From Candidatus Omnitrophota bacterium (GTDB lineage Bacteria > Omnitrophota > Gorgyraeia > Zapsychrales > Zapsychraceae), in contig JACROV010000083.1 of NCBI GenBank assembly GCA_016214285.1, positions 1 to 43,799 on the forward strand: a DNA stretch of 43,799 nucleotides, written 5' to 3'. The notes under the pieces are model-generated. The model ran no database searches. It was not told the DNA's origin and was given only the letters and a program-made list of their open reading frames with translations. The stretch's first letter is position 1, and the number at the start of each line of letters is the position of its first letter. The translations under genes and the position numbers were made by a program. Shown one piece after another: positions 39,732-42,686 of this stretch.

Positions 39732-40855
39732 AAAACAGAATCCAGTTTAACCGCAATGAGCTTTCAGGAAGTTTTGGGGATATCGGCACCGATTTTCCGT
39801 TGATCGCGGGAATGATCCTTGCGTCAAACCTTGACGTGGCCAGCGTCTTTGTGATGTTCGGCTTGATGCAAATTCTCACGGGGATCGTTTACGGATTGCC
39901 GATGCCCATGCAGCCGCTCAAAGCCATGGCGGTTTTGGTTATTTCCCAGAACATTCCATCTTCCGTATTGTTCGGCGCGGGATTTGCCATCGGTCTGGTG
40001 ATGCTGGTTTTAAGTTTGAGCGGCGCGCTCAACTGGCTGGCGGTAAAAACCCCGTCGTGTGTGGTGCGCGGGATCCAATTCGGTTTGGGGTTATCCCTAG
40101 CATCGTTGGCGCTTACGAAATATGTCCCGAGTATGGGCAACGATGGTTATGTTCTTGCTTTGATCGGCTTTGTGATCATGGTCGTTTTGCTGGGCAACCG
40201 CCGCTGGCCTCCGGGGATCTTTGTCATCGGCCTGGGGTTGCTTTACGCTATTTTCTTTAAGGTGGATTTGAACAGCCTTTCTTCCGGGATAGGTTTGCGT
40301 TTGCCGCAGTTTTCTTTACCCGGCGCCCGTGATATTCTCGCCGGGTTTTTCCTTCTGGCCCTGCCGCAACTGCCGCTTTCGATATCGAATTCCGTGATCG
40401 CGACCAACAAGACCGTCCACGACCTTTTCCCTGAGCGAAACATATCGGTCAAAAAGATCGGGATGACTTATGCCTTTATCAATCTGGTGGTGCCGTTTTT
40501 CAAAGGGATCCCTGTCTGCCATGGCTGCGGCGGCCTTGCCGGTCATTACGCGCTGGGCGGACGGACGGGGGGGGCGGTGATCATTTATGGATCGGTCCTT
40601 GCCGTCATCGGCCTGATGTTCAGCCAGGCGTTTCATCAGGTTGTCCAATTTTTCCCGCAGCCGATCCTGGGTGTCGTGTTATTTTTTGAAGCCTTGACGC
40701 TGATGCTTTTTATCCGCGATCAGGCGCAAAGCAAACGCGGCACGGCGATAGCTTTGCTCGTTGCCTTGGTGTGCCTGACACTGCCCCAGGGATATGTCGT
40801 TGGGTTGATCATCGGGACAGCTTTGTATTATTCTCCTTACTTCAAGGGCCTTTGA
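39728..40855 (+). CDS. MOT1-like molybdate/sulfate transporter
   Basis: 375 residues from ATG 39728, about 10-12 membrane helices. NELSGSFGDIGTDFPLI at the N-terminus, MPMQPLKAMAV and PVCHGCGGLAGHYALGGRTGG are the marks of the MOT1 molybdate transporter group, which is related to SulP but lacks the STAS domain. The Gln and Gly-rich segments are in place. The GTG at 39716 would add four residues of repeat. No molybdenum-cofactor gene is near, so the substrate is inferred from family only. Confidence 0.88.
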   Translation: MKNRIQFNRNELSGSFGDIGTDFPLIAGMILASNLDVASVFVMFGLMQILTGIVYGLPMPMQPLKAMAVLVISQNIPSSVLFGAGFAIGLVMLVLSLSGALNWLAVKTPSCVVRGIQFGLGLSLASLALTKYVPSMGNDGYVLALIGFVIMVVLLGNRRWPPGIFVIGLGLLYAIFFKVDLNSLSSGIGLRLPQFSLPGARDILAGFFLLALPQLPLSISNSVIATNKTVHDLFPERNISVKKIGMTYAFINLVVPFFKGIPVCHGCGGLAGHYALGGRTGGAVIIYGSVLAVIGLMFSQAFHQVVQFFPQPILGVVLFFEALTLMLFIRDQAQSKRGTAIALLVALVCLTLPQGYVVGLIIGTALYYSPYFKGL

Positions 40856-40889
40856 TTCGGTGACAGATGCTCTTTTATGCATAATAAAT

Positions 40890-41018
40890 GTACCCAATAG
40901 GGTACTATATAAACAAAAATATATAATTATGCACCCTTTCGGGTATACTAAAATCATAATAATCCCCATCGGGTATAATAAACAAAAGTATTAATTGAAA
41001 TTGTACCCGACAGGTGTT
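40890..41018 (+). promoter_or_regulatory. Four ACCC-N4-GGGT operators upstream of hipB
   Basis: GTACCCAATAGGGTAC (40890-40905), CACCCTTTCGGGTA (40932-40945), TCCCCATCGGGT (40963-40974) and TACCCGACAGGTGT (41004-41017) share the pattern ACCC-4-GGGT. Their centres are about 41, 30 and 42 bases apart, close to 4, 3 and 4 helical turns. A perfect TATAAT (40974-40979) overlaps the third site and TATACT the second, so HipB bound here would cover the promoter. Autorepression by HipB is typical; the operator sequence itself is inferred. Confidence 0.75.
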
Positions 41019-41030
41019 ACATTATTACCA

Positions 41031-41288
41031 ATGAATTACCATATTATTAATCTTCAAATTAAAGATTTGCGGAAAAAATTAGGTCTGACGCAAGTTGATT
41101 TTGCGAAACGGGCTGAAATCGGTCTGCGTTTTTTAAGAGAACTTGAGAGGGGAAAAACTACTGTTCGATTGGATAAACTTAATAAAGTTTTAGATTTTTT
41201 GGGATATCACTTGGAATTAAAAAGGAATGAACCTGAAAAGGCATCCGGAACTCTTATCACTAAACTTGGTAAAAGGAAAATAACTTAG
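41031..41288 (+). CDS. hipB: HipB-like antitoxin/regulator
   Basis: An 85-residue Xre-type helix-turn-helix protein (IKDLRKKLGLTQVDFAKRAE ... FLRELERGKTTVRLDKL) with the extended C-terminal tail common in HipB. ATG 41031 is chosen because the longer version from 40995 runs through the fourth operator. It binds DNA and helps repress its own operon. Base composition is clearly AT-rich compared with the flanking genes, as in all three genes of this locus. hipS follows 13 bases later. Confidence 0.88.
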   Translation: MNYHIINLQIKDLRKKLGLTQVDFAKRAEIGLRFLRELERGKTTVRLDKLNKVLDFLGYHLELKRNEPEKASGTLITKLGKRKIT

Positions 41289-41301
41289 GGCAAGAGAACC
41301 T

Positions 41302-41631
41302 ATGAAATCGTTACGACAAGCGCAAGTTTTTTATGGGAATGAATTAGCCGGGTATCTTCAAGAGAGAGAAGACGGTTATATTTTTGAATATGATAAGGAG
41401 TTCTTGAAAAAGGATATTCCTGTTTCAGTATCTTTGCCTCCAAGAGAAGAACCTTATAAGTCTAAAGAATTATTTCCATTCTTTAAAGGTCTTTTGCCCG
41501 AAGGTTGGTATTTAAATATTGTCAGTGCTACCCGGAAAGTCGATAGCAAAGATTCGTTCGGTGTTTTGCTTTCAACGGCGAGTGTAGATACCATCGGTGC
41601 GGTAACGGTGCGAAGCAGAAAGGCGGTATAA
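41302..41631 (+). CDS. hipS: HipS-like protein (HipA N-terminal subdomain on its own)
   Basis: At 109 residues it matches the HipA N1 subdomain: QAQVFYGNELAGYLQ, FSLPPREEP-type segment (SVSLPPREEPY), FPFFKGLLPEGW and DTIGAVTV. It stops cleanly before the kinase part. In the HipBST systems of E. coli O127 and Legionella this piece is a separate antitoxin that blocks the HipT kinase. The gene order B-S-T here is the same. Splitting by mutation of a normal hipA is the alternative, but the 8-base gap and new start favour a true three-part system. Confidence 0.85.
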   Translation: MKSLRQAQVFYGNELAGYLQEREDGYIFEYDKEFLKKDIPVSVSLPPREEPYKSKELFPFFKGLLPEGWYLNIVSATRKVDSKDSFGVLLSTASVDTIGAVTVRSRKAV

Positions 41632-41639
41632 CTTTAGAA

Positions 41640-42503
41640 ATGAGTGATAAATTTATAAAAAATATGTTCAATGCTTCTGAATTGCCAATTATAGATTTTG
41701 GCTTGGAAGATATGTCCCAAAAAGCGCAGAAATTAACCGGGAAACTATCCATTTCTGGAGTCCAGCCAAAATTACCGATGAAACTGGATAAAAAAAGGAA
41801 TTCCTTAATTCCTGTTGCTGACGGCGGGGAGTATATCTTAAAACCACAAAATGCCGCTTTTCCCAATATTCCAGAAAATGAACAGTGTTGCATGGATCTG
41901 GCGGAAGAATTTGAGATAGATGTCCCCCCCCATTGCTTGCTTTCTTTAAAGGATGGCAGTTTGGCATATATCGTCAAAAGATTTGACCGAGAGTCAGGCG
42001 TGAAAATACATCAAGAGGATTTCTCTCAAATACTGGAAGTCGAAGACAAATATAAAGGTTCTGTTGAGCAAATCGGACGTAAATTAAAAGAAATATCAAC
42101 AGCGCCAGGGTATGATGCGCAGTTATTTTTTGAAAGAGCCGTCTTTAACTTCATTATTGGGAACGGAGATGCGCATCTAAAGAATTATTCAATCACATAC
42201 AAGGATAAGGAAACTATCCGACTGACTCCTGCTTATGATATTGTTTGCTCAAAATTAGTGATCCCGGATGAAGCAGATTCCGCTTTAACAATTAATGGTA
42301 AGAATAATAAACTGAAGAAAGAGGATTTTGATAAATTTGCGGAATATTTGAATATTCCACCTAAAATCCGATATGAAAAATTTGGGAAGAGTCTGAATTT
42401 GATGGAAGCAGTCATTAAGGGTTCCAGGATTAAGAACGAGAGCCAGAAAAAATTTATTGATATTATAAAAACGCGTTTATTACGTCTGGAATTACCTGCC
42501 TGA
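41640..42503 (+). CDS. hipT: HipT-like serine/threonine kinase toxin
   Basis: 287 residues with the HipA kinase core: SISGVQPKL at 37-45 (Gly-rich loop, with Ser 37 and Ser 39 as in the HipT autophosphorylation motif), ILKPQ, VKRFDR, the catalytic NGDAHLKN (Asp 177) and the metal Asp of PAYD (Asp 200). HipT-type kinases phosphorylate and inactivate an aminoacyl-tRNA synthetase (tryptophanyl in E. coli O127), stopping translation. All key residues appear intact. tRNA-Arg lies 100 bases downstream, a typical neighbour for a mobile island. Confidence 0.9.
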   Translation: MSDKFIKNMFNASELPIIDFGLEDMSQKAQKLTGKLSISGVQPKLPMKLDKKRNSLIPVADGGEYILKPQNAAFPNIPENEQCCMDLAEEFEIDVPPHCLLSLKDGSLAYIVKRFDRESGVKIHQEDFSQILEVEDKYKGSVEQIGRKLKEISTAPGYDAQLFFERAVFNFIIGNGDAHLKNYSITYKDKETIRLTPAYDIVCSKLVIPDEADSALTINGKNNKLKKEDFDKFAEYLNIPPKIRYEKFGKSLNLMEAVIKGSRIKNESQKKFIDIIKTRLLRLELPA

Positions 42504-42602
42504 AAGATAAAGAGATAAGTAGAATTCCAAACGTGATACAATGATCGCCCTGTTATTTGCTGGAATTCTTTACATTGATTTGATGAATTTTGAAATATTT
42601 TT

Positions 42603-42677
42603 GTCCCTGTAGCTCAGACTGGATAGAGCATTTGCCTTCTAAGCAAAGGGTCGGCCGTTCGACTCGGCCCAGGGACG
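42603..42677 (+). tRNA. tRNA-Arg (anticodon TCT)
   Basis: Acceptor gtccctg/cagggac, D stem gctc/gagc, anticodon stem tttgc/gcaaa around cttctaa (anticodon TCT), T stem ggccg/cggcc. CCA is not encoded. The gene lies between the hip island and an AsmA-like gene and may be the island's target site. Confidence 0.96.
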
Positions 42678-42686
42678 TTTTAATTT

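Follow-up and report, generated by a model that had tools for sequence, protein, structure and literature searches.

Four operator sites precede a three-gene hipB-hipS-hipT operon in the 43,799-nt Candidatus Omnitrophota contig analyzed here (the window, taken at its full length), and their centres lie close to whole helical turns apart. These sites, with this type of spacing, are present in two phyla, which suggests that the repressors line a single face of the helix and act in concert. We estimate at about three in four the probability that the sites form an autoregulatory operator array of the HipBST operon, on which HipB dimers sitting on one DNA face would bind cooperatively and block RNA polymerase.

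The three genes are read from the plus strand. hipB (41034..41288, 84 aa) encodes a Cro/C1-type helix-turn-helix regulator (HTH_3, E = 9.8e-12), which scores 73.8 bits against TIGR03070 couple_hipB (cut-off 71.65) and has L. pneumophila HipB as a solved relative (8ezt, E = 3e-7). hipS (41302..41631, 109 aa) encodes a stand-alone HipA N-terminal subdomain (Couple_hipA PF13657, E = 3.5e-24), whose solved relatives are H. influenzae HI_0666 (7czo, 2.2e-15), then the HipS chains of 7vkb (Legionella, 1.2e-11) and 7ab3 (chain B, 1.2e-10). hipT (41640..42503, 287 aa) encodes a HipA-like kinase devoid of subdomain 1 (HipA_C PF07804, E = 1.4e-49), for which HipT(Lp) (8ezr, 1e-44) and 7ab3 (5.7e-24) are solved relatives, with 8ezr, 7vkb and 7ab3 all ranking above HipA. 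Its kinase motifs are intact, GVQPKL, GNxDxHxKN and PAYD being invariant in an alignment of six HipT. The gene order is that of HipBST systems: a hipB helix-turn-helix gene, a hipS gene for N-subdomain 1 and a hipT kinase gene without subdomain 1. Because Couple_hipA and HipA_C are found in two different ORFs, rather than together in the one-chain HipA of K-12-type hipBA, and given the solved relatives of HipT, HipS and HipB, the predicted proteins identify the locus as a split-HipA, HipBST-type three-gene toxin–antitoxin operon and not a two-gene hipBA. The first-pass annotation had assigned the sites to a hip locus; this part stands, as they are conserved in front of the hip operon, the type of the locus being the three-gene HipBST and not hipBA. 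The same gene order and split are described for E. coli O127 HipB-HipS-HipT in the accessible parts of PMC6581861 and PMC10627512, with a HipT of 335 aa there versus 287 aa in the window.

The array occupies the interval between a molybdate-transporter-like gene (ending at 40855) and hipB (starting at 41034), and is composed of four 18-bp inverted repeats (40889-41019), two of which are imperfect in one arm. The distal operator 4 (40889..40906, TGTACCCAATAGGGTACT) has a matrix score of 18.8, the second best match of the window, and operator 3 (40930..40947, TGCACCCTTTCGGGTATA) is the best match, with a score of 24.5. Operator 2 (40960..40977, TAATCCCCATCGGGTATA), imperfect in one arm, scores 17.7, and the promoter-proximal operator 1 (41002..41019, TGTACCCGACAGGTGTTA), the right arm of which is merged with an extended −10, scores 14.5; this merged form is also present in most relatives. 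The centres, at 40897.5, 40938.5, 40968.5 and 41010.5, are exactly 41, 30 and 42 bp apart, bearing out the four sites and the distances given previously. The motif ACCC-N4-GGGT, which had been ascribed to all four, is exact in two of them, while the third reads TCCC-N4-GGGT (one mismatch) and the fourth ACCC-N4-GGTG (two mismatches). When 40856-41033 was shuffled 2000 times with dinucleotides preserved, no shuffle reached two exact sites, none reached three sites with at most one mismatch, and 8 reached four sites with at most two mismatches, the counts observed in the window. The four sites also come out as the best four matches of the 43.8-kb window (24.7, 17.9, 16.9 and 12.9) when the window's own sites are withheld from matrix training, the next best match scoring 8.9.

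Across the window's own genome, the 18-bp pattern with up to two mismatches occurs at 47 places, versus 95 for a reversed-pattern control, and forms no second cluster; a regulon of hip operators across this genome was rejected on these grounds. Only one other exact match occurs, at C24:3561; it falls within a predicted ORF of 629 aa and is taken as chance.

Relatives of HipT were collected from 71 of 383 related genomes (distant HipA-like matches included) and from 39 named contigs, mostly Candidatus Omnitrophota MAGs. Once duplicates had been discarded, upstream sequence was usable in 64 loci, of which 59 belong to the core family. Sites of score ≥9 are present in every one of these 59 non-redundant Omnitrophota core loci, at two to six per locus (three to five in most) and 204 in total, compared to 15 matches in 235,009 positions of these loci beyond their upstream 450 nt, and to 0.025 matches per shuffled upstream region. 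These counts exclude L011/L045 (upstream cut off), L023/L057 (contig without hipB), L097 (no hipB match), L076, L091, L093 and L095 (contig ends) and, as lying outside the core family, L068, L069 and L098-L101, with L099-L101 treated apart. Note that the weak proximal site of L043 is lost at a stricter threshold, and that the operator matrix recognized no array in L068, L069 and L098. Conservation upstream of homologous loci, a check named beforehand, is thus found throughout the core family and supports the sites as conserved operators of the hip locus.

In Omnitrophota loci whose operator is of the ACCC/GGGT type, HipB has a nearly constant recognition helix, GLRF[LIVFM]R[KDE][LM]E, and the HipB of a viral contig with the same operator (see below) reads GVGLRFVREME, which keeps the GLRF-x-R-x-x-E stretch. 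A second, distant hip-type system of Omnitrophota (L099, L100 and L101) has a TTACC-N4-GGTAA operator with a spacing of 50/50/49 bp, and in these loci HipB carries RFISELE, preceded by TGN, NVG or similar. The recognition helix is therefore constant where the motif is constant and different where the motif differs, pointing to HipB as the cognate regulator. This covariation, from sequence comparison, favours the earlier proposal that HipB is the regulator of the sites, and HipB very probably reads them.

We then considered the distances between neighbouring sites. Those of 20-60 bp number 128, from 64 loci that include L068, L069 and L099-L101, these five contributing none. All but two correspond to three, four or five turns, i.e. 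30/31, 41/42 or 51/52 bp (30 bp, 9 times; 31 bp, 47; 41 bp, 21; 42 bp, 39; 51 bp, 2; 52 bp, 8), and none of these 126 deviates by more than 1.2 bp from a multiple of 10.4 bp. The exceptions are proximal steps that adjoin the promoter, of 34 bp in L055 and 44 bp in L032, indicating that an array can do without a phased proximal site. A further 17 distances outside 20-60 bp were omitted: eleven of 70-72 bp and single values of 16, 18, 76, 82, 98 and 116 bp, most of which involve weak sites. The 70-72-bp distances amount to about 7 turns, 1-2 bp short, and come mostly from a two-site clade (L082-L088, L090 and L096) in which two near-perfect operators stand that far apart and the middle site is absent. 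When each lineage-and-interval class was reduced to one value (9 values, the classes having been grouped after the data were seen), the in-phase score was beaten by none of 20,000 uniform draws; with one value per lineage (5 values), it was beaten by 26 of 20,000.

A comparable spacing is also observed outside Omnitrophota. In Bacteroidota, the second phylum, nine plasmid loci were scanned with a matrix trained on Omnitrophota only; the HipT of the four Bacteroidota loci in our alignment is ~38-42% identical to that of the window. Six of the nine loci, and one viral contig, harbor the same operator at intervals of 40-41 bp, with three sites each in Runella (41/40), Persicobacter (40/40), Bacteroides (41/41) and Hymenobacter (41/41), and intervals of 41/41 in Phocaeicola and 40 in Bergeyella. 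The Parabacteroides locus L113, apparently close to the Bacteroides one, has a single site above threshold. The matrix recognized no array in Arcobacter L110 or in Sinorhizobium L111, the latter encoding a fused HipA and lacking the motif, and no ACCC/GGGT array in Bacteroidales L115 and L116; these last two plasmid hip loci display a TCACA-N6-TGTGA operator spaced by 61/61 bp, about six turns. The viral contig, L117 (IMG/VR), carries HipBST genes and three sites at 40/40. It was obtained, along with L118, a second IMG/VR viral contig with HipBST-type genes, from a second viral scan using an alignment, the first one being empty; genes and operator array together were read on L117 only. No HipT relative was found in the phage collection.

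The position of the array on the promoter indicates how it could act. A promoter scan of the plus strand predicts a −35 element TTGAAA (40995..41000) and a −10 element TACATT (41018..41023), the latter preceded by TG (extended −10), with a 17-bp spacer that is filled by the proximal operator. Relatives aligned on the proximal site present TTGnAA (TTG in at least 90% of them), then the operator within the 17-bp spacer, then TATATT or a similar hexamer. The proximal operator is the weakest of the four in the window, and its right arm reads GGTGnTA in most Omnitrophota; this arm keeps the predicted extended −10 at the expense of operator symmetry. In the mechanism that we propose, each 18-bp palindrome (consensus TATACCC-N4-GGGTATA) would be bound by one HipB dimer. 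With sites 3, 4 or 5 turns apart, all dimers, together with any HipS or HipT that they carry, would be placed on one face, where neighbours could touch directly or through small in-phase bends and would fill the array cooperatively. Since the proximal site lies in the 17-bp promoter spacer, the filled array would shut RNA polymerase out; being compromised by the extended −10, this site probably leans on the stronger upstream ones.

The upstream sites could alternatively be phased to RNA polymerase rather than to each other, with HipB activating at low level and repressing once the proximal site fills, in a lambda CI-like manner. The site centres fall near −19.5, −61.5 and −92.5 from the predicted start, and class I activators such as CRP act from positions like −61.5 and −92.5. 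This scheme is also in line with the many loci that have centres 42 and 73 bp upstream of the proximal one, and with a proximal site that is the weakest in the window. We nevertheless find it unlikely. The promoter step is shifted in L055 and L032 while the upstream steps are still 52 and 31 bp, and the −61.5 site is absent in L082-L088 and L090. Moreover, of the seven Bacteroidota loci that have an ACCC/GGGT-type operator, six show a box resembling TAnnTTTG, the consensus that we take to be the Bacteroidota −7 promoter box, directly next to one site; the boxed site covers the start point and not a −35/−10 spacer, and the whole-turn spacing is kept where measurable. The array is thus placed differently on the promoter in the two phyla while the whole-turn spacing persists, and this, along with the shifted steps of L055 and L032, argues for dimers phased to one another rather than to RNA polymerase. 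Finally, in E. coli O127, the hipBST promoter is repressed by HipB alone, a lower expression sufficing with HipT present, according to the accessible part of PMC10627512.

The sites might also be true operators whose spacing is merely inherited by descent, without functional need, as many of the loci have a common ancestry and 31-42 is the commonest arrangement on the HipT tree. The spacers argue against this. Among 25 loci with the 31-42 block, compared at HipT identity below 70% (225 of 300 pairs), 74% of site bases are common, but the figure for spacer bases is 40%, close to the 38% expected from composition alone; the spacer length is thus conserved where the sequence is not. In addition, the distal interval, beyond the core, is of 3, 4 or 5 turns, at least five changes among these are needed on the HipT tree, and the changes go in whole turns. 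Near-whole-turn distances are also found in the second phylum and with other operator sequences. Simple inheritance hence appears improbable, and the comparison between loci shows that the whole-turn spacing is under selection. The near-whole-turn spacing that the first-pass annotation had noted in the window therefore holds in the relatives, both in the 126 of 128 distances and in the length kept over diverged spacers. It is least probable that the repeats act as RNA hairpins or a terminator instead of protein sites: the distal one is flagged as terminator-like on the minus strand, but the stems are short (6 pairs in the flagged one), the outer TATA...TATA pattern is kept, the sites, located inside the promoter or further upstream, are not part of its transcript, and the motif changes along with the HipB recognition helix.

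In K-12, hipB is likewise preceded by four 18-bp palindromes that fit one frame, and the hipBA regulator is a helix-turn-helix protein of the HipB family. In the accessible parts of the K-12 studies, the locus is autoregulated by cooperative HipB binding (PMC3376134, PMC3920265) to operators of consensus TATCC-N8-GGATA (PMC3376134), with a DNA bend of ~70 degrees per site (PMC3376134, PMC3920265). The window consensus differs, being TATAC-N8-GTATA in the same 18-bp frame, and the Omnitrophota matrix gives the K-12 promoter-proximal operator a score of 13.3. With this frame common to both, the contrast formerly drawn between a spacer of 4 and the 8 of E. coli HipB is misleading, an artefact of the bases counted, and the real difference is the distance between sites. 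The K-12 sites are 28, 39 and 28 bp apart, about 2.7 and 3.75 turns (10.25-10.5 bp per turn). These are not whole turns; neighbouring K-12 sites are thus rotated against each other by about a quarter to a third of a turn, whereas those of the window and its relatives, at ~31/42, are on one face. In K-12 HipBA, the site-to-site geometry is tied to the persistence function. HipA is a single chain in K-12 and is split in the window operon.

Another close precedent is Legionella HipBST, whose operators were the first reported for a HipBST system according to the accessible part of PMC10653801. As described there, this operon has, like the one in the window, several 18-nt operators, one of which overlaps the promoter. 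Legionella HipB binds three conserved operators (O1-O3) with six-base arms and 53-bp gaps, distinct in sequence from hipBA operators; their spacing is even in almost all of 28 species. The window differs by its four sites at 41/30/42. The Legionella centres would be 71 bp apart if the published gaps run edge to edge, like those of the two-site Omnitrophota clade (70-72 bp). The same text raises intermediate occupancy, in contrast with the cooperativity of K-12 HipB.

We found no report of whole-turn-phased HipBST operators in the literature on HipBST, HipB operators, helical phasing in toxin–antitoxin systems, Omnitrophota HipA and Bacteroidota, a search that covered only a minor part of the subscription papers. 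Omnitrophota and Bacteroidota thus present an operator different from that of Legionella with a strict whole-turn spacing, which offers a testable prediction on the way in which split-HipA regulators cooperate on DNA, as opposed to K-12 HipBA. Tentatively, HipBST regulators across phyla may use a one-face operator code (n = 3 to 7 turns), the stacked assembly bending the promoter into a planar curve. Were the K-12 HipBA bend of ~70 degrees to apply to each site, the four bends, being in phase, would describe most of a circle of ~130 bp. Such an assembly, if real, would be both a cooperative switch and a toxin store, unlike the rotated K-12 arrangement.

Two minor features of the operon are worth mentioning. 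The predicted −10 ends at 41023 and the hipB ATG is at 41034, giving a leader of ~4 nt, similar in many relatives; this leaves no room for a Shine-Dalgarno sequence, and hipB may thus be translated from a nearly leaderless mRNA. The hip module (40856-42600) is GC-poor, with ~35-41% per 500-base step versus ~46-61% in the flanking steps, and a tRNA-Arg gene (42602-42678) lies just downstream of the operon. The nearest HipT proteins (77-79%) belong to other families in the class, and the figure is only ~70% in two genomes of the same genus, which fits horizontal spread. Taken together, the GC-poor island, the adjacent tRNA-Arg gene and the closest HipT in other families indicate that the hip operon is probably a mobile module.
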